Shown here in pieces: positions 53,040 through 64,000 of a stretch of 64,000 nt of DNA. A program made the translations under genes and the position numbers. Numbering within the stretch: position 1 is the stretch's first letter; the number at the start of each line of letters is the position of its first letter. The stretch is from Claveliimonas bilis. Its GTDB lineage: Bacteria > Bacillota > Clostridia > Lachnospirales > Lachnospiraceae. The stretch is from the NCBI RefSeq assembly GCF_020892095.1, contig NZ_AP024845.1:1178001-1242000 (forward strand), in the 5' to 3' direction. A model generated the notes under the pieces. That model ran no database searches. It had not been told where the DNA came from and saw nothing but the letters and a program-made list of their open reading frames with translations.

Positions 53040-53849
53040 ATGAAAAAGAAAAGATTCGTTTCCGCTCTGCTGGTGGCGGCAATCACCGGCGCAATGTTGA
53101 CTGGATGCGGCTCAGACAGCTCGTCAGAAGGCTCCGAAGAAAGCAAGGAAGAAAAGAAAACAATCCGCATTTCCACCACAGGGGAGCATGCATTTTTTTC
53201 AGAAACAAATGAGGACGGCGAGCTTCAGGGATTTGAAATTGATGTATGGAATGAAATTGCGGACCGTCTGAATTATGAGATCGAGTGGGAAACCGCCGGG
53301 TTCCCGGGCGTCATTGAACTGCTTGACAGCGGACGCGTAGATACTGTGGCTGACCAGATCGGTATCACAGATGAAAGAAAGGAAAAATACTATTTTACAG
53401 ATACCTATTTCTATGTGCCATATAAGATTGTTGTAGCAGAGAGCACCAATGATATCAATAGTGTGGAAGACTTATACGGAAGGACCCTTGGACTTCTCAG
53501 CGATGATATTGCCTATGACTATTTTGATGAACTGGATCCGGATGGACAGATCAAGTATGTAAATTACGACGACAGTACAGCAGTGCCGACAGACGTAGCG
53601 CTTGGAAGGATTGACGCCACTTTGATGTCAGCTCTTCATATTGAATCTGTAAAACAGGAATCCGGACTTGAAATCAAGGGCGTAGGTGATGCAGTATATA
53701 CAGAAAATGCCGGATATCCGTTCCAGAAAACAGAGGAAGGCAAAGCCCTGTGTGATGAAGTAAACGCTGTGATCAGCGATCTGAAAGAAGAAGGATTCCT
53801 TCATGATACGTCAGTAAAGTGGTTTGGATTTGATCCTATGGAAGAATAA
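53040..53849 (+). CDS. Polar amino acid (cystine-type) ABC importer binding lipoprotein
   Basis: 269 residues. Lipoprotein signal with lipobox MLTGC (Cys about 22), Ser/Glu-rich linker, then an SBP family 3 fold (GFEIDVWNEIADRL, GRVDTVADQIGITDERKEKYYFTDTYFYVPYKIV). These strings resemble cystine/cysteine-binding proteins of the TcyA/TcyK kind; the ligand is inferred. AGGAGG precedes the ATG. A hairpin after the stop may raise its level over the permease and ATPase. Confidence 0.9.
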   Translation: MKKKRFVSALLVAAITGAMLTGCGSDSSSEGSEESKEEKKTIRISTTGEHAFFSETNEDGELQGFEIDVWNEIADRLNYEIEWETAGFPGVIELLDSGRVDTVADQIGITDERKEKYYFTDTYFYVPYKIVVAESTNDINSVEDLYGRTLGLLSDDIAYDYFDELDPDGQIKYVNYDDSTAVPTDVALGRIDATLMSALHIESVKQESGLEIKGVGDAVYTENAGYPFQKTEEGKALCDEVNAVISDLKEEGFLHDTSVKWFGFDPMEE

Positions 53850-53869
53850 GATTACAACTAACTAACCAA

Positions 53870-53920
53870 AAGGGGCCGTCACATGAGGAATTTAGTTCTC
53901 ATGTGATAAGCCCCTTCTTT
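53870..53920 (+). terminator. Intercistronic attenuator hairpin
   Basis: AAGGGG...CACATGAG / CTCATGTG...CCCCTT stem (53870-53916), then CTTTTG. Lies between binding protein and permease, where partial termination would produce excess binding protein. Confidence 0.7.
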
Positions 53921-53939
53921 TGAAACCTTGGAGAAAAAA

Positions 53940-54608
53940 ATGGATACATTTAGAATCGACTATTTTATTGAAATTATTCCCAAAATACTAAAGCTGCTCC
54001 CGGCGACAGTCATCGTCGCGTTTCTCTCCCTGATCCTTTCCCTGCTACTTGGTATCATACTGGCAGTCATTCGCCAGTACCGGATCAGAGGACTGTTCTC
54101 TTTGAGTACAGTCTATGTTTCTTTCTTCAGAGGGACACCATTTATCGCGCAGTTGTTTCTTTTTTATTATGGGTTTGCCCAGGTCAGCGAGACGATACGG
54201 AACATGAGCGCATTTACAGCTGTTGTTATTTGTCTGAGCGCTAATTACTGCGCTTTTATGTCCGAAGACATCAGGGCCGCTTTAAATTCCGTCACAAAAG
54301 ATCAGTATGAAGCAGGACTTTCCATCGGGATGCGTCCGCTAAAAGTTGTTACCAAAATTATTATTCCGCAGGCTGCAAGAATCGCCGTGCCGGGACTTTC
54401 CAATAATTTTATCAACCTTTTCAAATCAACATCTATCGGATTTATGATCGGCTTCAAAGATATGATGGCAGCGGTCAGCATGGAAACCTCCAGAACCTAC
54501 CGCTTCCTGGAAGGATATCTGGCAACAGTCGTCATCTACTGGATCATTATTTCCGCGTTGAATCTGCTCCAGAGCAAAATGGAAAAACGTCTGAACAGAA
54601 TTTATTAA
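53940..54608 (+). CDS. Polar amino acid ABC importer permease
   Basis: 222 residues from the ATG at 53940 (MDTFRIDYFIEIIP), preceded by GGAG; the outer TTG is not needed. About five membrane segments, family HisM/TcyB. The EAA loop EAGLSIGMRPLKVVTKIIIPQAARIAVPGL contacts the ATPase. Forms the importer with the flanking genes. Confidence 0.92.
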   Translation: MDTFRIDYFIEIIPKILKLLPATVIVAFLSLILSLLLGIILAVIRQYRIRGLFSLSTVYVSFFRGTPFIAQLFLFYYGFAQVSETIRNMSAFTAVVICLSANYCAFMSEDIRAALNSVTKDQYEAGLSIGMRPLKVVTKIIIPQAARIAVPGLSNNFINLFKSTSIGFMIGFKDMMAAVSMETSRTYRFLEGYLATVVIYWIIISALNLLQSKMEKRLNRIY

Positions 54609-54631
54609 TATGAAATGAAAGAGGCAAAACT

Positions 54632-55372
54632 ATGATTCGTATTGACAATTTAAATAAAAGTTTTGGATCGCTGCATGTTTTAAAAGATATCTCTATCCGT
54701 CTGGAAGAAAGAAAAGTATTAGTCCTGATCGGGCCGTCGGGTACCGGAAAGTCTACCCTGCTTCGCTGTATCAATTATCTGGAAAAGCCTGATTCCGGCA
54801 TCATAACAATTGACCAGTTTTCAGTAGACGCCAAAAACCATAAGAAAAACGAAGAATATGAACTTCGCGCCAGGACGGCCATGGTCTTCCAGAATTACAG
54901 CCTGTTCAAAAATAAGACCGCACTGGAAAATATCATGGAACCTCTAACGGCAGTACAAAAGATCCCTAAAAAAGAAGCAGAAGGTCAAGCACGGGAAATC
55001 CTGGAAGCAATCGGTCTGACAGAAAAGGCCGATTCTTATCCGTCCCAGCTGTCGGGCGGACAGCAGCAGCGGATCGGAATCGGACGGGCTATGGCAGTAA
55101 AGCCAAAAGTAATGCTGATCGACGAGCCTACTTCTTCACTGGATCCGGAACTGGTAGGGGAAGTATTGAACCTTTTATATAAACTGGCAAAGGAAAATAC
55201 CACTATGATCATCGCCACCCATGAAATGGCATTTGCCAGACACATTGCCGATCATGTGGTATTTCTGGACGAAGGGGAAATCGCCGAAGAGGGAACCCCC
55301 GAAGAAATTTTTTCCGCCCCAAAGACACAGCGCTTACAGCAGTTTCTCCGCAAATTTGAAAAGCAGTCGTAA
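54632..55372 (+). CDS. Polar amino acid ABC importer ATPase
   Basis: 246 residues, GlnQ/TcyC-type. Walker A GPSGTGKST, signature LSGGQQQR, Walker B VMLIDEPTSSLD, switch His in ATHEM. DEPTSSLDPELVGEVL is typical of the polar amino acid subgroup. Starts 23 nt after the permease. Converges on the UXS gene with only 9 nt between stops and no terminator seen. Confidence 0.93.
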   Translation: MIRIDNLNKSFGSLHVLKDISIRLEERKVLVLIGPSGTGKSTLLRCINYLEKPDSGIITIDQFSVDAKNHKKNEEYELRARTAMVFQNYSLFKNKTALENIMEPLTAVQKIPKKEAEGQAREILEAIGLTEKADSYPSQLSGGQQQRIGIGRAMAVKPKVMLIDEPTSSLDPELVGEVLNLLYKLAKENTTMIIATHEMAFARHIADHVVFLDEGEIAEEGTPEEIFSAPKTQRLQQFLRKFEKQS

Positions 55373-55381
55373 TTTTTCCTT

Positions 55382-56311
55382 TTAGTATTTCTTTTTGAAA
55401 TAAGCGATCGTCCTCTCGATCCCCTGCTCGATATCAACAGTCGGCTCCCAGCCCAACTCCCTTTTCGCATAGGAAATATCCGGTTTCCTTTTCACAGGAT
55501 CATCCTCCGGAAGCGGCTGATGCACGATCCTGGAGCTGGAACCGGTCTTTCTTATGATCATATCTGCCAGCTCCAGGATGGTCATCTCATGGGGATTCCC
55601 CAGATTGACCGGCCCCGGAAAATTCTTTTTCTCCATGACCGCGATCATGCCGGTCACCAGGTCGTCCACATAGCAGAAACTTCTCGTCTGAGTTCCGCTT
55701 CCATATATGGTGATATCCTTGTTGTGTATGGCCTGCATGATAAAGTTGGAGACGACCCGCCCGTCGTTTTCCAGCATATGCGGTCCGTATGTGTTAAATA
55801 TCCTTATGATCTTCGTGTCCGTTCCATATAATCTCCGATAATCGGAAAACAGGGTTTCCGCCACCCTCTTTCCCTCGTCATAACACGCCCTTGGCCCGGT
55901 GGTATTTACATTGCCTCTGTAGCCTTCCTTCTGCGGATGAATCAGAGGATCTCCATAAATTTCGCTTGTACTTGCCTGCAGGACTTTCGCATTCATTTTT
56001 CTGGCCATTTCAAGTACATTAAGCGCTCCCAGAAAACTGATCTTGGTCGTCATGATCGGATCGTACTGATATTGAACCGGACTTGCAGGACAGGCCAGAT
56101 TATAGATTTCATCAATATCAAGATGCATCGGATGGATAATATCTGCATTCACAAACTCAAAATCAGGATTGGAATACAACTCTCCTATATTGTCATACGT
56201 TCCCGTAAACATATTGTCAATACAGATTACTTTATTTCCGGCGTCCAGCAGCCTCCGGCACAAATGAGAGCCTATAAATCCGGCTCCGCCTGTTACTAAT
56301 ATTCTCTTCAT
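55382..56311 (-). CDS. uxs: UDP-glucuronate decarboxylase (UDP-xylose synthase)
   Basis: 309 residues, extended SDR. NAD motif [10 protein letters not shown], catalytic YDEGKR in [16 protein letters not shown], and [14 protein letters not shown], the substrate-loop signature of UXS. Converts UDP-glucuronate to UDP-xylose. Last gene of the radical SAM operon, 23 nt after the Cys-rich partner. Its product could feed xylosylation of the cluster's product; that link is inferred from position only. Confidence 0.88.
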
Positions 56312-56334
56312 CTTTTTTCTCTCCGGTTTCCTTT

Positions 56335-57060
56335 TTATTTTTTCCTGAAAATCAATTCAGCCCCATATTTCTTATGAACAGTTTCCAGTATGTTTTCCGG
56401 TATCATCCGGTACTTTTTCCCAAGCATATATCCGTCTATCGTCATCTCATATTCTTCTCCCCCGGCCCTTAAGCTGTAACATCCCTGGCGGCACAGCTCC
56501 GGCTCGCACCGCCCTGTCTCGTATTCCAGATAACAGATCCTTCCCAGCGTCTGGTATTGAAGGAGTGCGTTGTCAAAAAACGGTACAAGCCCAAATGAAT
56601 ACAGCCTGCCCGCAAGTTCCTGATCCCCTGTCTCCATGCCGGTAAATCCTCTTTCCTTCAGGAACTGAAGAAACTCATCTGAGTACCTCCGCTCCCGCAC
56701 TCTCCCCATCTGTCCCCAGATAAGGCGTATATTCTTATACGATCCGGCAGCCATCCTGGCAGTCCCGAAGTCCTGGACGATCACACAGGATTCCTTTTTA
56801 TATCCGTCCATCAGGCGTAGGATGGCTGTTACTTCTTCTAAGTTTCTCCCGGTAACATACAACGGCGCCTGGTAAACCGCCTCCTTCTTAGAGGCAAGAA
56901 CACGGTCCATCAAAAGGATCAGATCCGCAATTCCATTTTGAAACATACGTTTCTGACAAAACAGATCTCCTAAAATGACCCCCTTTACTTCGCTTTTTTC
57001 AATCAGTTCTTCTATTCTCCCAAGATCATAGGTCTCTCGGCCTGCAAAATATTCCCTCAT
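56335..57060 (-). CDS. Uncharacterised Cys-rich protein paired with a U32 protein
   Basis: 241 residues from the ATG at 57060 ([12 protein letters not shown]), with GAGG 7 nt upstream; a GTG six bases earlier is less likely. Four cysteines cluster near residues 175-195 ([18 protein letters not shown]), able to hold an iron-sulfur cluster. The alternating strand/helix pattern and gene pairing suggest a diverged U32 barrel, analogous to UbiV beside UbiU. That resemblance is weak, and I do not assign a function. The gene start overlaps the U32 gene end. Confidence 0.6.
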
Positions 57061-57062
57061 TT

Positions 57063-57914
57063 TCACACCTCATACCAGTTGCTTCGTCTTATATAATGCA
57101 TCATCCCCGGGATTTCAGACAAATGCTCCAGATAAAACTTCTTGCTTTCCGCCATATCCTTCACTCTTCGCAGAATGTAGTCCAGATTGTTTGTTCTTCC
57201 TTCCACTTTAAAGGAGCGTATGCCCATTCCAAGGTAAATCCCCATTGTGCGGTGTATTTTCCCCGGGGGATTTCCGATCCGTTTTGCAGGCCCAAGGAAT
57301 GTCCCGTCTTTCAAAAGTTCATATTCTTTCTGACAGTACACACTGTATCCTTCCTTTTGCCCGAAATGAGGAAGCAGGCACTGGCGGTTGGAATTGAAAC
57401 AGATCCCGCCATCGGCCACGATCTCATAATCCATATCCGGAACTTTGTCCGTCAGATCCACAATCTCGTCTACAAATAAATCGGAAGACAAAATAATGCG
57501 GCTTACTCCCATTTCCTGCAGCATGCGGACGTCTTCGTGATTATAGACCCCCGTGAGTGTGCTTGCATGAAGCTGAGCATGTCTGACTATTTTGGAAACG
57601 CGGTTCATCAGCCCGTAATCTGACAGGATCAGGGCGTCAATCCCCTTTTCATCCAGCTCTTCTATCAGCCCGCATAGCTCTTCTATTTTCTCTCCGGGAA
57701 CATTTGCATTTATCGCCGCAAACAGTTTTTTTCCCTCTTCGTGAACTGACGGCAGCGCTTCCCATATCTCTTCCGCTGAAAAGTCTGAAGATTCCGGTCT
57801 TGCACTGTACCCGGCAAGCCCGACATAAACAGCATCCGCACCGTTTTTCAGTAAAGGAGCTATATCTGCCGCCCTTCCCGCCGGTGCAAGTATTTCACAC
57901 TCTACTCTCTTCAT
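57063..57914 (-). CDS. U32-family protein (UbiU/RlhA/TrhP-type)
   Basis: 283 residues from the ATG at 57914 (MKRVECEILAPAG), preceded by GAGGTG. Family hallmarks: LAPAGxxxxxxxLLKNGADAVYVGL, LHASTLTGVYN and the cysteines in GGICFNSNRQCLLPHFG plus SVYCQKEYEL that usually bind a [4Fe-4S] cluster. Characterised relatives, though annotated peptidases, act in O2-independent hydroxylation of quinones, tRNA or rRNA. Single-domain length and pairing with the next gene recall UbiU-UbiV. Acting on the cluster's product is inferred. Confidence 0.85.
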   Translation of the reverse strand: MKRVECEILAPAGRAADIAPLLKNGADAVYVGLAGYSARPESSDFSAEEIWEALPSVHEEGKKLFAAINANVPGEKIEELCGLIEELDEKGIDALILSDYGLMNRVSKIVRHAQLHASTLTGVYNHEDVRMLQEMGVSRIILSSDLFVDEIVDLTDKVPDMDYEIVADGGICFNSNRQCLLPHFGQKEGYSVYCQKEYELLKDGTFLGPAKRIGNPPGKIHRTMGIYLGMGIRSFKVEGRTNNLDYILRRVKDMAESKKFYLEHLSEIPGMMHYIRRSNWYEV

Positions 57915-57928
57915 ATTGCACACCTCTT

Positions 57929-59254
57929 TTATCCGCTGCAAAATATTTTCTTAAATATCCTAAGGTACTCCAGGCATAAATAATAATCCAGCTCTGACTC
58001 CCCCGGCCCGTATTTATAAGAGATCCGGAAAGAAGGATCATAAAACTCGTTTGTTTCCTTTACTTTGGCAATAAACGCCTCCTCGTCTTCAGAATCCCGG
58101 AACAATGCGCACAGGGAAGTGCTGCCGGGGTTCTTTCCTACAAGGGTGTTTGTTTCATCATCAAAGTATTTTCGGCACATTTCCTTCTGTCTTATTTTGG
58201 AAACGCCGTTTTCCTCCATTATTTCAGCCCCAAGATCCTGCATTTTTCTGCTGATAAATGGATATAGCCCTGTAATCCCAAATGCCTCCAGCATCAGCAC
58301 ACTCTTTTTCAGTACGACCATGGCCCCCAGTTCATATGGATTATCATTGTAATTTGTCAGATATGGGGGCGCCTTACGGTCATAAAAATTCCGGTTAAAT
58401 ACCTGATCCGCTCCTTCGCCCAGCAAAATATATCGGACATGCTCCTCTTTCAGAAGCTTTGCCAGCGCATATTGAAGGAAAATCCCCCGTTCATAAAGAT
58501 TCCCCTCCAGCGTCTCAACAATTTCTTCCAGACGCTCCCGTATCTTAGGCCCCACGCTTCCTTTCCGAAGGCTGACATTCCCGGCATGAGCACACAAGTT
58601 TGCCGCCACGCCTGTCTCGTCCAATCCCCGGGCCGCACCGACGGAAAATCCACATGATGGTATCCCTCTTTCCTTCAGAAAATGCAGGATGAGATTGGAA
58701 TCAAATCCTCCCGAGATCGCCAGATTAACCTGCCCCTTTTTTGACAACGCCAGATCGATATAGGAATTGATGATTGCTCTTTCTCTTTCATACATCTGAT
58801 CCAGGCTGACCTTCTGCCTGTTCGCTTTTGTCCTTTCCAGTCGATGTATGTTAAGCTCTCCTGCTTCTATTTCCAGGTATTCTTCCGGAAGCAGCTTATA
58901 AACATCACGTACCAGCGTGTCCTTTGTCCGGATAAATCCGTTGTATATAAATTCACTGATCAGTTCCGGATCATCCTGGAAACGGCATTGATAAGAAATG
59001 GCAGACAGCAGTTTCAGTGAAGTGAAAATATAATACCTGCCGTTATGTTTCAGATAAAAGACAGTCTTATTTCCTCCCATTGTGCTCCGGATGACCCGGC
59101 AGGAACCCGGTCCTGCCGGATTTTCAACAGCGGTAAACATCTCTTTATTTCCATATACATACACCTGTTTCCCGTCACGGTCTGTAATCTCTTCCCCTTC
59201 TGTATACAGAAATCTCACAGAACCGGTTCTGCCTGTTTCTAATAAAAAGTTCAT
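57929..59254 (-). CDS. Asparagine-synthetase-like ATP-dependent amidotransferase
   Basis: 441 residues. The second half is the AsnB synthetase fold, with PP-loop LAISGGFDSNLIL near residue 180 and LGEGADQVF. The first 150 residues keep the end of the glutaminase domain (ELISEFIYNGFIRTKDTLVRDVYKLLPEEYLEIEAG) but there is no N-terminal Cys2 (starts MNFLLETG), so glutamine hydrolysis is not expected. Relatives without Cys2 make amides, lactams or macrocycles in natural-product and polysaccharide clusters. Its 4-nt overlap with the radical SAM gene upstream indicates a shared pathway. Confidence 0.85.
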   Translation of the reverse strand: MNFLLETGRTGSVRFLYTEGEEITDRDGKQVYVYGNKEMFTAVENPAGPGSCRVIRSTMGGNKTVFYLKHNGRYYIFTSLKLLSAISYQCRFQDDPELISEFIYNGFIRTKDTLVRDVYKLLPEEYLEIEAGELNIHRLERTKANRQKVSLDQMYERERAIINSYIDLALSKKGQVNLAISGGFDSNLILHFLKERGIPSCGFSVGAARGLDETGVAANLCAHAGNVSLRKGSVGPKIRERLEEIVETLEGNLYERGIFLQYALAKLLKEEHVRYILLGEGADQVFNRNFYDRKAPPYLTNYNDNPYELGAMVVLKKSVLMLEAFGITGLYPFISRKMQDLGAEIMEENGVSKIRQKEMCRKYFDDETNTLVGKNPGSTSLCALFRDSEDEEAFIAKVKETNEFYDPSFRISYKYGPGESELDYYLCLEYLRIFKKIFCSG

Positions 59255-60615
59255 TCTTCTCTTCCCGCCCCCGCCTTTTCCAGAAAATAATTTTTATACT
59301 CCCGAAGATTTACCTTCAGGCAGCCGATCTCATCGCTCATAATGAACGCGCAGTCCATACATACCCTCGGCACTTCTCCTGAAATAAATTTCTTCCGAAA
59401 TGTTTTCAGTTCCTCATAATTATGATCAATCGTTTCTTCTCTTTTTTCCTGTCCTCTGTTATAGGGAATTTCAGAGCATGGCCTCACTTTGCCGGATGAG
59501 TTGACGTACAGCCCGAATCCGATCCAGTGACAGATCCCTTCACAGGAAATTGCTCCTTCCGTAGAGTACAAATGAGGTTCAAACAAATGGGACTCTTTTA
59601 ATTCTTTATATTTTTCTGCCAATCCTTCATAATATTTATCGCCTTTATAAAACGGCTCCTCATGGATCTGTTCCCTTTCCCGCTCCGCCTTCTTACAGTC
59701 AATGACATTGTTCCGCATGATAACAGGCGTTACTACGCGTATCCCGATCCTTTCCCCTTCCTGCTTCGCCCTCTCCAGTTCCCTGCCGGCAAAATTAGGA
59801 TAATAAATCAGCTCGTCTTTTTCATTTCCCAGAAAAAGATTAGACCCCAATCTCCCAAATCTTATTTCTTCAAATCCTAATTCTTTTGCCATGCGCACGA
59901 GACTGACTGCTTCCTCAATATTTTGTCTCATAGCCACGACTGACATAAAAAGCTGCACATCCGGACAGTTTTCACGCAGTATAGTCAAATTTTTGATAAA
60001 TTTGGCAAAAGAAGCTCCTCTTCTTATGGATTCGTACGTTTCTGCACAGGCCCCGTCACAGGAAACGTTCATTCTCGCAAAAACTTTATTGATCTTAGGC
60101 AGGCTGTCCATTGGAAGATGCTGCAGATTTGTCGTAGTGAAAATCTTTACCTGATATGTTTCAAAAATGGAAATGATCTCTGAAATCTGCGGATGAATAA
60201 AGGGTTCCCCATATCCGTTGATCATAACGATCCTGCAGGCTGCAAAATACTGCTTAAGTTCATGGAATTTATCGCGGGACAGGTATTGTGCATCGCTGTT
60301 TTTTTCATAGCAATGTTTGCACATCATACATTCACAGTCGCAGAAGCTGGAAAGTTCCATATGCATCATCACCGGAGTATGGCTGTATGTCTCCATCTGA
60401 TGTTCCGTTTCATATACAGCCAGAATATTATTTGCGATCTTACTGATCTGATAATCTCCTTTTGCTTTAGAATGTTCGATCAATTCCGGCAGCTGTGTGT
60501 GATCAGTCAGTTCATAGCTTTTATGATCGTATTCCAGTTCCATCCTTTGGCTGAAATCAAAGTGAAAAAATATATTACTGTATTCTTTCGTAAGATCCTC
60601 TCTCTTTATCTGCAT
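59251..60615 (-). CDS. Radical SAM/SPASM-type protein 1
   Basis: 454 residues. [4Fe-4S]-SAM motif CDCECMMC (CxxxCxxC) near residue 95, with GYGEPF beyond it, a form of the GGE motif. Auxiliary cysteines near the C-terminus (CEGICHWIG, VRPCSE, VCMDCAF, GCLKV) suggest SPASM-like extra clusters. Strings such as SCDGACAETYESIRRG and VAMRQNIEEAVSLVRMAKELG recur in the radical SAM proteins at 61758 and 62917. Reaction unknown. Confidence 0.88.
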   Translation of the reverse strand: MQIKREDLTKEYSNIFFHFDFSQRMELEYDHKSYELTDHTQLPELIEHSKAKGDYQISKIANNILAVYETEHQMETYSHTPVMMHMELSSFCDCECMMCKHCYEKNSDAQYLSRDKFHELKQYFAACRIVMINGYGEPFIHPQISEIISIFETYQVKIFTTTNLQHLPMDSLPKINKVFARMNVSCDGACAETYESIRRGASFAKFIKNLTILRENCPDVQLFMSVVAMRQNIEEAVSLVRMAKELGFEEIRFGRLGSNLFLGNEKDELIYYPNFAGRELERAKQEGERIGIRVVTPVIMRNNVIDCKKAEREREQIHEEPFYKGDKYYEGLAEKYKELKESHLFEPHLYSTEGAISCEGICHWIGFGLYVNSSGKVRPCSEIPYNRGQEKREETIDHNYEELKTFRKKFISGEVPRVCMDCAFIMSDEIGCLKVNLREYKNYFLEKAGAGREE

Positions 60616-60644
60616 ATTGCCTGTTTCCTCTTAATCTTATAAAA

Positions 60645-61718
60645 CTACTCTTCCCCATTAATAAGAACTGTAAGCTCCCCGGTGCACAGAAGCCAGCAGC
60701 CGGCGCACTGACACTTTTCCATCTTTTTGCGCAGCTCCATGTATTTCTCACCGTACCAGATATCTGACAACGTATGATTTTGAAGATTATCGACCGGCCC
60801 GAATCCGCCGCTCCAGCAGGGAAGCACATTTTCATAGGTATCTACATAGACTGTGGAATATCCTGCCAGACACCGGTATCCGTCAGGCAGTATTTTATTC
60901 TCGCACATAAAAGCTTTAAAGTGCCGCAGAAAAGTAATGGAATTGGTGATCAGATATCCCTCTTTCTTCATCTGTAACAGTTGATCCATAACGGTTTCAA
61001 CCTCCCTGGCGTCAAATTCCGCCAGTTCATCTCTCATATTAAAAACAAATCTGTGGTAGGGGCTGAATTGCAGGGAAACACCTTTTTTTGAATAGTACCG
61101 GACCATTTCCGGCATCTGCCCTATATTTTTGGCTGTGATCACCGGTGTAATATGTAACTTGACAGTTTCATCCTTCTGCATAAGTCCTCTTACTGTTTCA
61201 ATCCCCTCCAGTACAGGGCCGATATCTACTCCCCGCTGTGCAAGGTAATCTTCTGCATCTAAGGAGTCCAGAGAGATGATGAAATATCGCAGTCCGCTTT
61301 CGTAGAGGCTTTCGGCTCTCTCCTTTAAAAGGCAGCCGTTTGTCAGAAGGACAGGAACCACATTGCTGTCGGCGATCTGTCTGACAATCGTCTCCACATC
61401 TTTTCGCACCAGCGGTTCTCCACCGCTTATGCTGATTGCCTTTACGCCCATCTGTATGGCCTCGCCAATGATGGACTGCAGGCGTTCCAGGGAAATTTCC
61501 TGCTTCACTTCATTTTGGATCCTGCTTTTTGCATGATTGCAGTAAACGCAATCCGAATTGCAGTAATTTGTTATTTTCATCATCATATACTGTGGGGGCA
61601 TACTGACCTTTTTCGCTTCTATTTCTTTTCGGATGGCAGAGCGCACTTCATCAAAGCCGGTTCCCTTTTCCCCGAATAGCATTTCTTTTATATCATTTAC
61701 CGAATCATAAATTGTCAT
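60645..61718 (-). CDS. Radical SAM protein 2
   Basis: 357 residues. CNSDCVYC (CxxxCxxC) near residue 53 and SISGGEPLVRKD follow the classic MoaA/PqqE layout. C-terminal CWSGGFGPV, KCQCAGCWLLC give a partial SPASM. It lacks the GEPF and MRQN stretches of the other three, so it belongs to a different subfamily and may act on another step. 29 nt separate it from protein 1. Confidence 0.88.
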   Translation of the reverse strand: MTIYDSVNDIKEMLFGEKGTGFDEVRSAIRKEIEAKKVSMPPQYMMMKITNYCNSDCVYCNHAKSRIQNEVKQEISLERLQSIIGEAIQMGVKAISISGGEPLVRKDVETIVRQIADSNVVPVLLTNGCLLKERAESLYESGLRYFIISLDSLDAEDYLAQRGVDIGPVLEGIETVRGLMQKDETVKLHITPVITAKNIGQMPEMVRYYSKKGVSLQFSPYHRFVFNMRDELAEFDAREVETVMDQLLQMKKEGYLITNSITFLRHFKAFMCENKILPDGYRCLAGYSTVYVDTYENVLPCWSGGFGPVDNLQNHTLSDIWYGEKYMELRKKMEKCQCAGCWLLCTGELTVLINGEE

Positions 61719-61757
61719 TTTCCTCTACCTTCTTTGTCCCTGATATCGTTTCTTTCC

Positions 61758-62912
61758 TTAAAATTCCGGGTTTTTCAGCCACTGGCACTCCCCGCACCAT
61801 TTTGGCAGCTTCCCTTCTCTCATCTTAAGGCGGAGCTTTTTATAAAAAGGTCCGTTCCATATTTCCTCAAAAGTTTGTTCTTTCAGACTGCCATAGCGGT
61901 GGCTCACATCATAGCAGCATGTCGTCAGATTCCCGTTAAGATCAATATAGCACCGTTCCACTGCCCATCTGCACAGATCGCCGTAATCAAATAATTCCCG
62001 CGTAAAATCTTCCTCCCTTACGGAGCTGCCCAGATACTGCCGGGACAATACCTCATGATAAGCTTCTGCTTTTCGGATCCTCTTTTCTGCCTCTTTTTCC
62101 TCGCCGTGTATTTTTTCCAAATCCCGCGCCGCGTCTCCTCTTTCCGGAGACTGAACCCGGGGCAGCTGTATCCTGATCCCCCGCTCCCTGGCTGCATTTG
62201 CCGCTTTTTGGGCCTGCTCCATCAGATAATGGGGATAGAGATCCGGCGCATCTTTTTCATTGCCTATGATGGGGTTTATTCCCAGCGAGTGAAAACGAAC
62301 AGATGCAAATCCATAATCCGCCGCAAAACGGACCAGATTTTCCATATCTCCTATATTCTGGCGCATCAGCACACAGTCCATATTCTTTTTCAAATGGGGG
62401 GCAACCTTGTTCAGCTTTTCAAGATTAGCCTTAAAATCCTCAAAACACAGCCCTTTTCTTATGGATTCATACAAGTCCTTTTCGGCCCCGTCGCATGATA
62501 TGTTAAGAAAGGAAAATGCATGTCCCATATCATTCCACAGCTGCTCCGGAACTACTGTAAAATTCGTGTTCATGCCAACCTTCACTTCATATTTTCCAAA
62601 AAGGGCAAGGGACTTGTCAATATTTCCGTAGAGAAAAGGCTCGCCATCTCCGTTCAGCATCACGGTTTCCGCGTATTTCAGGATATCTTCCAGGGCATAG
62701 AGCACATCCAGGTCAATATCTTTCGCCCCTCTGTTTCCGGTATACAGATGGTTGCACATAATGCACTTTGCGTTGCAGCGGGTCGTATGTTCAATCTGAA
62801 GATATCTGGGATAAAAGGAAACGGACCCGTCCCAGTCCCTGTCCGGTATTTGTTTTCCTTCTTCAAATTCCAGGATTTGATCCCTGTTTTCCTGCTTTTC
62901 CTTCTCAAACAT
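61758..62912 (-). CDS. Radical SAM/SPASM protein 3
   Basis: 384 residues. CNAKCIMC near residue 44, GDGEPF about 40 residues on, then NISCDGAEKDLYESIRKG and LMRQNIGDMENLVRFAADYG shared with proteins 1 and 4. C-terminal SPASM cysteines: LCRWAVERCYIDLNGNLTTCC and WCGEC. Tandem paralog. The ATG is 4 nt beyond the stop of protein 4. Confidence 0.88.
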   Translation of the reverse strand: MFEKEKQENRDQILEFEEGKQIPDRDWDGSVSFYPRYLQIEHTTRCNAKCIMCNHLYTGNRGAKDIDLDVLYALEDILKYAETVMLNGDGEPFLYGNIDKSLALFGKYEVKVGMNTNFTVVPEQLWNDMGHAFSFLNISCDGAEKDLYESIRKGLCFEDFKANLEKLNKVAPHLKKNMDCVLMRQNIGDMENLVRFAADYGFASVRFHSLGINPIIGNEKDAPDLYPHYLMEQAQKAANAARERGIRIQLPRVQSPERGDAARDLEKIHGEEKEAEKRIRKAEAYHEVLSRQYLGSSVREEDFTRELFDYGDLCRWAVERCYIDLNGNLTTCCYDVSHRYGSLKEQTFEEIWNGPFYKKLRLKMREGKLPKWCGECQWLKNPEF

Positions 62913-62916
62913 ATTT

Positions 62917-64000
62917 TTATTCTCCCAGCAGTGTTTTCAGTTCCTGTTTCTGCTTTTTTTTCAGCCTGGTATCCTGATAAAAATCCGGGCTGATATCTAC
63001 TGTCAGATATTTCAGCTCTCCTCCTTCGATCATGCCGCATTTCAGGCACGCCTCCGGAACATAGCCCGAATAGAAGATCTCTCTGCTTTTCTGCATCAAA
63101 GGAGCGTTCCATACAGAGAGGAACTCCCCTTCCTTCGATACGTTTCCGGCGCGGTATATTAAATTTCTGCAGCACATGGAGATATCGCCGTGCAGATTTG
63201 TATAGCAGTTTTTCAGCAGCCAGTCGCAGACTCCGGAACATCTCACCTCTGTCGGTACCGTTGTATTTTGCTCCTGATCATGTGTCTCAATGTAACGATT
63301 CACGATTTCGGCTGTCTCCAGCATTTTCTGCTCTTCTTCTTTCGTTTTCCACATAGGTATCCTTCTCATTTGAGTAAGTTCGTCCTGAATTTCATCAAAT
63401 GTAATTGCACGGTTTAATCCCCCGGCATTTGCCACTACGACATGGATTCCCAGTTCTTCTCCCTTCTCCAGTGCTTTCACGGAATAATATTCGGTCACTT
63501 TAGGGTAATGGAGCATGACATCCCCGGCATTTCCGATGATCAGGTTAGGATTCAGGTTCAAAAAGACCACCTGGTCCGCCCCCGCCTTATGAGCCAGTTC
63601 CACCATCTGCGGCATTTCGCAGACGTTCTGGCGCATCATGACCATGGATATGATCTTCTTCACATGGGGCACTCTCTCTTTTAATTTGTACAGATTGCTG
63701 ATCAGTGTTTCATAGGACATGCCGATCCGAATGGATTCGTAGGTTTCTTTGCTTGCGCCGTCAATAGAGATCGCAAGCCACTCAAAATCTTTCCCTATCC
63801 GCTCTATCAGTTCGTCATCCAGCACAGACAGGTTTGTGTTGGCAACTATCTTATTCCCGTATCCGACATACAGATCGATCTGCTGTTTTACCAGTTTACT
63901 GATGAACGGCTCTCCCATCCCGTTGAGATTAATACGTCTGCTTAGCTGTATCGCATCTCTCATATGCTCCAGCGTCTCCATACTGAGGATCTCCGCTTGT
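62917..64000 (-). CDS. Radical SAM/SPASM protein 4 (5' end beyond window)
   Basis: At least 361 residues visible; the frame is open to the window edge, so the start and the CxxxCxxC motif lie beyond 64000. NGMGEPF, SIDGASKETYESIRIG and MMRQNVCEMPQMVELAHKAG align with proteins 1 and 3. C-terminal SPASM: CSGVCDWLLKNCYTNLHGDISMCC and CLKCGM. An in-frame ATG at 63981 would remove the SAM cluster motif and is not a plausible start. Confidence 0.85.
   Translation of the reverse strand, partial: QAEILSMETLEHMRDAIQLSRRINLNGMGEPFISKLVKQQIDLYVGYGNKIVANTNLSVLDDELIERIGKDFEWLAISIDGASKETYESIRIGMSYETLISNLYKLKERVPHVKKIISMVMMRQNVCEMPQMVELAHKAGADQVVFLNLNPNLIIGNAGDVMLHYPKVTEYYSVKALEKGEELGIHVVVANAGGLNRAITFDEIQDELTQMRRIPMWKTKEEEQKMLETAEIVNRYIETHDQEQNTTVPTEVRCSGVCDWLLKNCYTNLHGDISMCCRNLIYRAGNVSKEGEFLSVWNAPLMQKSREIFYSGYVPEACLKCGMIEGGELKYLTVDISPDFYQDTRLKKKQKQELKTLLGE

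Follow-up and report, generated by a model that had tools for sequence, protein, structure and literature searches.

Moenomycin is a glycosylated prenyl lipid, to which belong the prenyltransferases MoeO5/MoeN5 and MoeH5, an enzyme akin to AsnB. As described in PMC8778134, MoeH5 is an amidotransferase that amidates a uronic acid, and PMC9385802 gives the Asp motifs of the UbiA family. For UbiU-UbiV of Escherichia coli, the cysteine motifs (CX6CX16CX38C in UbiU and CXnCX12CX3C in UbiV) and the ligand positions are those given in PMC6747719. According to a 2024 review (PMC11574389), the biochemically characterized U32 oxidases are ubiquinone and RNA enzymes, and it is not settled what becomes of prephenate or what the iron-sulfur clusters do. 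Here, we describe an operon of Claveliimonas bilis (family Lachnospiraceae) in which relatives of UbiA, AsnB, UbiU and probably UbiV are encoded together with radical S-adenosylmethionine proteins (rSAMs) and glycosyltransferases (GTs). We read it, with about even confidence, as a patchily distributed biosynthetic cluster whose enzymes, working on the cytosolic side of the membrane, would build a small molecule with sugar and prenyl parts. Its last genes lie in the window, i.e., the whole stretch of 64,000 nucleotides analyzed (contig NZ_AP024845.1, G000:C1:1178001-1242000), which belongs to a genome of 3.04 Mb in one contig. A preliminary description of the window knew of no pathway with this set of genes, and no description of the cluster was found in the open-license literature, which covers few subscription journals.

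Eight open reading frames (ORFs), all on the minus strand, span positions 55382-64000 of the window, with a spacing that goes from a 13-nucleotide overlap up to a 39-nucleotide gap, as tight as had been described. The end of the window severs the operon, whose full extent on the chromosome is 21.4 kb with 20 genes on the same strand, every gap being at most 39 nucleotides, and the eight are the last of them. The 12 further genes lie upstream of rSAM A, up to a helix-turn-helix (HTH) regulator (L024:4475-4768) that forms the 5' end at G000:C1:1254768, and include four GTs, a kind of gene that the preliminary description had suggested seeking past position 64000. The order of transcription is HTH, GT2a, GT2b, a PaaK-like ligase, GT2c, GT4, rSAM E, a flavoprotein of the geranylgeranyl reductase (GGR) family, a GH36/raffinose-synthase-like protein (L022:11968-14046), an APH-like protein (L022:10991-11971; no informative solved relative), an isopentenyl diphosphate (IPP) isomerase (IDI), UbiA, rSAMs A, B, C, and D, an AsnB-like protein, a U32 protein, its UbiV-like partner and a UDP-xylose synthase (UXS). 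Base composition gives the operon no foreign mark (G+C of 44.8%, versus 44.2% and 46.4% in the flanks).

The isoprenoid genes stand at the center of our reading. UbiA (L022:9461-10453) scores 41 bits in Pfam (cut-off, 34.2), has 9 hydrophobic segments by hydropathy count and keeps the Asp motifs, with N61, D62, D65, D69, D191, and D195 invariant in all eight aligned members. It stays below the cut-off of every NCBIfam model matched and fits no characterized subfamily well; the decaprenyl-phosphate phosphoribosyltransferase model is matched, weakly (E value, 6e-4), by one of the eight members. The archaeal version (L034) is just below the Pfam cut-off and carries a C-terminal extension of ca. 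270 amino acids without meaningful Pfam match. PF01040 has no match in the genome other than the operon UbiA, so that a standard quinone or haem A pathway would lack a UbiA-type enzyme of its own, which sets this genome apart from the UbiU-UbiV system; PF00348 (polyprenyl synthase) likewise has a single match. The IDI (L022:10441-11016) is of type I, above the cut-offs of two NCBIfam models (NF002995, 155.5 versus 127 bits; TIGR02150, 118.1 versus 105.8), and directly adjoins UbiA in G000, L027, L028, and G157, whereas in G808 it is found at the head of the cluster next to GT2a. The best solved match of the GGR-like profile (gene at L022:14082-14984) is digeranylgeranylglycerophospholipid reductase (2.8e-17), so that archaeal lipid reductases are the nearest. 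With DGGGP synthase and geranylgeranyl reductase of archaea the operon thus shares a UbiA-family membrane enzyme with two Asp motifs and a GGR-like protein, but its UbiA falls short of the NCBIfam cut-offs, no gene for a glycerophosphate ether is found among the operon proteins, and several GTs are present.

Next to each other near the 3' end are the U32 protein (57063..57941, minus strand; Pfam Peptidase_U32, 5e-30) and its partner (56335..57066, minus strand), which is read as UbiV-like from its cysteine pattern, a profile match and a predicted TIM (triosephosphate isomerase) barrel. For the former, judging from the alignment, an ATG nine codons inside is a likelier start than the listed TTG at 57941, which overlaps the AsnB-like gene. 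Compared with E. coli UbiU by hhalign, the U32 protein gives a probability of 99% (E value, 2.4e-18), and its Cys 181, 188, and 203, present in 8/8 homologues, align with C169, C176, and C232 of UbiU. It reads CX6CX14C and does not match the four-cysteine motif. In the partner, Cys 37, 178, and 192 are invariant in eight of eight homologues and Cys 196 is kept in four, its spacing of C-X140-C-X13-C-X3-C being close to that of UbiV as given in PMC6747719 (C39-X140-C180-X12-C193-X3-C197). A profile of the partner against seven UbiV proteins provides modest support (P value, 7.6e-5; probability, 62%); in the alignment C37 meets C39 and C178 meets C180, and it ends before the last cysteines. By hhalign, the partner gives 0.2% with UbiU and 45% with the U32 profile. 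It has no Pfam, NCBIfam or plasmid match, and its best PDB sequence match has an E value of 0.36; the U32 protein has no meaningful PDB sequence match either, and no relative of it was confirmed in viral contigs. AlphaFold models of both have TIM-barrel-like folds (mean predicted local distance difference test score, 76.8 for the partner and 69.2 for the U32 protein), with most of the cysteine regions at low confidence. Foldseek places the U32 protein Mk0906 as the top PDB match of the partner model (E value, 1.5e-4), but with the model of the U32 protein itself Mk0906 comes no higher than rank 30 in a list of TIM barrels, which makes the structure search weakly discriminating. Altogether, the two look like diverged UbiU/UbiV-type proteins, each keeping three of the four cluster cysteines, much as the preliminary description had guessed when it proposed an O2-independent hydroxylase-like pair. 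Three cysteines per site could conceivably leave an iron open for substrate. As fourth ligand, H230 of the U32 protein was a candidate until it proved not to be kept in L130, and a role as peptidase was set aside given the conserved cysteines. As in E. coli the U32 gene is adjacent to that of the UbiV-like partner, but no UbiT-like (SCP2) match was found among the operon proteins.

All four rSAMs of the window have the Pfam Radical_SAM domain, and A, B, and C, but not D, have SPASM. The genes, on the minus strand, are D (59251..60615; CX3CX2C), C (60645..61718), B (61758..62912) and A (62917..64000, severed by the window end); the whole A gene is located at about L022:7917-9437 (506 amino acids), with a likely start, read from the bases, at L022:9437, equivalent to window position 64437. 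rSAM E is at L022:14981-15898. The preliminary description had taken three of the four as tandem duplicates sharing GEPF, CDGA..YESIR, and MRQN, and the fourth as one of another type. The fourth, C, is indeed different, MoaA-like by best NCBIfam score, with all listed models below their curated cut-offs. GEPF, DGA..YESIR, and MRQN are common to A, B, and D, but CDGA is found only in B and D, A having IDGA. A recent duplication did not hold up. With a pairwise identity of 29-33%, A, B, and D are not recent duplicates, and a tree of 48 rSAM rows resolves the orthologues from the close clusters into one supported clade each for A, B, and D, which makes them old paralogues that predate the spread of those clusters. 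Among the rows of that tree are one rSAM cut by the end of its locus, a Methylomagnum row on a long branch, and two pairs in which a single gene is entered from overlapping loci; the CX3CX2C motif is present in 47 of the 48 rows, the sole exception being the one cut by the locus end. No meaningful Pfam match was obtained for the N-terminal parts of A, D, and related rSAMs. In a Clostridiales metagenome-assembled genome (MAG), HAN095, UbiA and rSAM A make up a single ORF of 844 amino acids (L030:7459-9993), which hints that the two work in sequence, although it is a single MAG and a lost stop codon is also possible.

UXS, the last gene (55382..56311, minus strand), matches UDP-glucuronate decarboxylase 1 (PDB 4gll/2b69) by phmmer with an E value of 5e-110, and in relatives it is located next to or near UDP-glucose dehydrogenase (UGD), present in 7/11 of the clusters compared below. 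The supply of UDP-xylose, already attributed to it from the letters alone, is thus well founded on homology. The AsnB-like protein (57929..59254, minus strand; Pfam Asn_synthase, 9.3e-13) retains the SGGFDS motif, but none of the five homologues has Cys at residue 2, the glutaminase cysteine noted early on as missing, so it would not qualify as a glutamine-dependent asparagine synthetase. Its nearest solved relatives are CarA (E value, 0.005) and AsnB (0.012), both weak, and it is perhaps an ATP-dependent amide synthetase. By description only, this protein and the product proposed here can be set beside moenomycin, a glycosylated prenyl lipid with an amidotransferase, but the operon has UbiA instead of MoeO5/MoeN5, plus the rSAM set, the U32 pair, PaaK and UXS; no PcrB-like family is found among the operon-protein matches, the Moe proteins themselves not being part of the comparison. 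The PaaK-like ligase (L022:17986-19176, start chosen) has phenylacetate-CoA ligase as its nearest solved match (8.5e-58). The GTs are GT2a (L024:3347-4471), GT2b (L024:2212-3324), GT2c (L022:17108-17968) and GT4 (L022:15888-17165). A hydropathy count in 10 of the 11 clusters (G813 left out; ORFs of at least 90 amino acids) identified UbiA, with 7-9 hydrophobic segments (the long archaeal form has 12), and GT2a and GT2b, usually with three apiece, as the assigned proteins with at least three segments; a few other ORFs with 3-5 segments are unassigned or beyond the core. No flippase- or exporter-like protein was recognized inside the clusters by this count, which is not a family search per cluster. 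This set of membrane proteins would suit a product put together on the inner (cytosolic) side of the membrane.

When GTDB genomes were scanned with an alignment of rSAMs B/A/D, 78 loci came up, of which ten carry the cluster or parts of it. L027-L036 were mapped in detail, and the 68 weaker loci (L037-L104) were screened by tblastn counts only. The former belong to Candidatus Mediterraneibacter excrementavium (L027), Oscillospiraceae MAGs (L028 and L029), a Clostridiales MAG (L030), a Lachnospiraceae MAG (L031), Bacillota S31_Bin1 (L032 and L033, on one contig), a Methanomethylophilaceae archaeon (L034), a Clostridia MAG (L035) and a Fibrobacterales bacterium (L036); going by the titles of two records, their sources were goat rectum and sheep duodenum. 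Wider stretches around the loci were read, and the compared set consists of 11 clusters, with the window's own included and G157, of the same family, added. G329, a second genome of the window species and outside these 11, has the locus at 99% identity. Gene order is nearly identical in L027-L030, with near-complete synteny in four MAGs at 44-84% identity, the missing 5' genes being located in the upstream stretches. The genes that flank the clusters, read by eye, differ between genomes. Diverged clusters with another gene order retain PaaK, GT2a/b, UbiA, and rSAMs, and the 14 genes of the compact version in G157 include those for U32, its partner, IDI, UbiA, GGR, PaaK, three GT2s, and two rSAMs. 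The archaeal version (L034:1280-13977) is diverged and runs on two strands, with UGD, GT2a, GT2b, PaaK, UXS, GT2c, rSAMs, and UbiA. Once its overlapping loci are merged, Bacillota S31_Bin1 has ten rSAM genes, and a carbamoyltransferase, a GDSL lipase and an ORF resembling leucine-rich repeat proteins are found among its core genes. In L028 a microbial PARG (poly(ADP-ribose) glycohydrolase) catalytic-domain protein (L028:17667-18950) is located between UXS and UGD, and in L029 two consecutive PHP-domain-family genes (L029:16646-19636) lie between the U32 pair and UXS, there being one such gene in L028 and one in L035/L119. The Fibrobacterales GT2a appears as two overlapping ORFs, perhaps by a frameshift (L124:7150-8300).

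By profile matches, rSAMs of the A/B/D type are present in all 11 clusters, PaaK, GT2a, GT2b, and UbiA in 10 each, GT2c, rSAM C, and UXS in 9 each, and the U32 protein with its adjacent partner in 8, as is rSAM E (three of them weak). IDI is found in 7/11, GGR and APH in 6/11, AsnB, GT4, and HTH in 5/11, PHP in 4/11 (one outside the core run) and GH36 in 2/11. In the table behind these counts G813 and G814 are cut by contig ends, genes in overlapping loci are listed twice, and the UbiA of L030 is scored within the rSAM A ORF. The weak rSAM E matches, in G810, G811, and G814, have only 53-72 bits; the GT2c match of G814, with 50 bits and on the other strand, is uncounted, whereas a counted PHP match of G811 lies ca. 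4.5 kb beyond the last core gene, and the profiles for PHP and UGD, like those built from a single source, are thin. The preliminary description had expected conserved co-occurrence of rSAM, U32, and AsnB to speak for one pathway. One pathway is indeed supported, since the gene set stays together in several lineages, but that trio is not its core, because AsnB is optional (5/11 clusters) and the U32 pair, though commoner, is present in 8/11; the recurring core consists of the rSAMs plus UbiA, the GT2s, and PaaK, the last three lying outside the window. Tailoring-type genes vary from cluster to cluster and include a carbamoyltransferase, a GDSL lipase, a leucine-carboxyl-methyltransferase-like protein, an FkbM methyltransferase, a B12-binding rSAM and an adenosine monophosphate (AMP) ligase. 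Such constancy of the core, combined with varying tailoring genes and a scattered set of hosts, is what one would expect of a natural-product cluster.

In the DNA around the 68 weaker loci, no relative of UbiA, U32, partner, AsnB, GGR, or IDI was found (tblastn; E value, 1e-6), a PaaK-like match being present in two and a GT or UXS match in several; the company that these rSAM genes keep is therefore specific. The cluster is also rare. In genome samples of the family, class, and phylum, which overlap, the AsnB-like protein was found in 2 of 397 family genomes at 1e-25 (both of one species) and in 1 of 391 class genomes at 1e-20 (the window's own), while at 1e-70 the cluster-type PaaK turned up in 4 of the 397 family genomes and, among 398 phylum genomes, in 1 (again its own). 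Within the genus, the cluster-type U32 was unseen in 9 other genomes (the best E value, 1.3e-29, being that of an ordinary U32), and in an empty-site test the proteins flanking the operon had no match at 1e-60 in 9 other genomes.

Gene content and order, families, key motifs, and co-occurrence are observations. From them we infer reactions, their order and a class of product, on strong family assignment for UDP-xylose formation and IPP isomerization and on weaker homology for the others. In this proposal, IPP isomerase would balance IPP and dimethylallyl diphosphate, the single housekeeping polyprenyl synthase would provide a prenyl diphosphate, and UbiA, in the membrane, would transfer the prenyl group to an acceptor, with the GGR-family flavoprotein presumably reducing prenyl double bonds. 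The UbiU/UbiV-like U32 pair would hydroxylate without O2, perhaps from prephenate, the PaaK-like enzyme would activate a carboxylic acid, and the AsnB-like enzyme, in this operon's version, would form an amide. Sugars would be attached by GT2a and GT2b (those with hydrophobic segments), GT2c, and GT4, one of the donors being the UDP-xylose that UXS would make, and the rSAMs would carry out radical tailoring. Several observations weigh against this interpretation. No significant solved match of UbiA pins down the prenyl acceptor; the only one, decaprenyl-phosphate phosphoribosyltransferase, is not significant (E value, 0.03, over 87 profile positions). Three of the four plasmid records with UbiA relatives are loci with GTs, surface-glycan-like, the fourth being unannotated. 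As IDI, GGR, and AsnB are not in all clusters (7, 6, and 5 of 11), hydrogenation and amidation cannot define the product, and, as the L031 cluster (like the cut one of G814) yielded neither UXS nor UGD, xylose is not universal. In the U32 protein, the column of UbiU C193 and its segment are a gap in 8/8 homologues, while the fourth UbiV cysteine is gone in 4/8 partners. Finally, the link of the partner to UbiV is that modest profile score of 62%, with 0.4% against E. coli UbiV alone (hhalign), and the fold predicted for it, a TIM barrel, is a common one, for which VIA-align ranks the U32 protein Mk0906 level with unrelated barrels.

The nearest conceptual rival is a locus for a surface polysaccharide or lipid-linked oligosaccharide, in which UbiA, in the manner of decaprenyl-phosphate phosphoribosyltransferase, would make a polyprenyl-phospho-sugar and the rSAMs, the PaaK/CapK-like ligase, and AsnB would decorate the glycan. 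The pairing of UGD with UXS, the number of GTs (three or four), the nucleotidyltransferase of G157, and the identity of that only solved (though not significant) UbiA match, a phosphoribosyltransferase, all agree with it, and so do the plasmid relatives of UbiA (27-31% identity; Nostoc, Oscillatoria, and Methylomagnum), which are found amid GTs and sulfotransferases, with an ATP-binding cassette (ABC) transporter in two of the three annotated loci (Nostoc and Methylomagnum). In the Nostoc and Oscillatoria plasmids the UbiA match sits within a larger protein. The plasmid of Methylomagnum ishizawai has in one run (L108:2389-21477) a polyprenyl synthetase, a twitch rSAM, AsnB, and UbiA, these four consecutive, along with GTs and the ABC transporter, which may reflect a similar logic at work in a locus for surface glycans. 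It resembles the operon in combining rSAM, AsnB, UbiA (27% identical to the operon UbiA over 64% of the query), polyprenyl synthetase, an FAD (flavin adenine dinucleotide) enzyme and GTs, but differs in its ABC transporter, in an AsnB of ca. 600 amino acids annotated as glutamine-hydrolyzing and in that no U32 pair is annotated. Nevertheless, besides UbiA the hydropathy count shows no many-segment protein of the flippase or polymerase kind among the assigned genes, in a count that left a few ORFs unassigned and was not a family search per cluster, and IDI and the GGR family, each in more than half of the clusters, point to isoprenoid chemistry. We regard a polysaccharide locus as rather unlikely.

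The product might also be a glycosylated prenyl-aromatic compound of the quinone type, serving as redox carrier or pigment, with PaaK activating an aromatic acid, UbiA prenylating the ring, the U32 pair hydroxylating it and GGR saturating the chain. The combination of UbiA, a UbiU/UbiV-type pair, a PaaK-like enzyme and GGR mirrors the logic of O2-independent ubiquinone synthesis. But the 20 operon proteins include neither a UbiE/UbiG-like ring methylase nor any for an aromatic precursor, a respiratory quinone has no place for GTs and UXS, and the U32 pair was not found in 3/11 clusters, one of them cut by contig ends, so that this origin seems to us quite improbable. A modified glycan, nucleotide sugar, or peptide had been offered as the product at the outset, and of these the peptide is disfavored. 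For an rSAM-modified ribosomal peptide (RiPP), prenylated and glycosylated later, one can invoke the SPASM domains of rSAMs A, B, and C, but its precursor gene would have to be elsewhere, as the spacing of at most 39 nucleotides bears out the earlier remark that none fits between the genes. No RRE/PqqD-like Pfam match was found in the rSAMs or the N-terminal parts tested, and the peptide-maturase models among the NCBIfam matches listed (the best 25 for rSAMs C and D) are all far below their cut-offs; a RiPP seems very improbable.

Outside the operon, three genes at positions 53040-55372 of the window are convergent with it and by eye resemble an amino-acid ABC transporter (binding protein, permease, and ATPase). 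Upstream of it, a large protein with papain-like, lectin-like, and Ig-like domains (L023:3222-7730) has no match at 1e-60 in 10 other genomes of the genus, including the same-species G329.

If the cluster makes a glycosylated prenyl compound, as we prefer to think, it may represent a new class of natural products of anaerobes, an rSAM-tailored and xylosylated prenyl glycolipid whose cluster is common to gut bacteria and an archaeon. It would include a U32 hydroxylase pair outside ubiquinone and RNA, with three-cysteine iron-sulfur sites and perhaps an open iron. This wider proposal is tentative and well short of even confidence. A U32 pair in a small-molecule operon would give the search for a substrate a target and would make available a system in which the cysteine set is altered. 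Being rare in the genome samples searched, the cluster could be missed by surveys at the species level, and it is a candidate source of a surface or signaling lipid in anaerobes.

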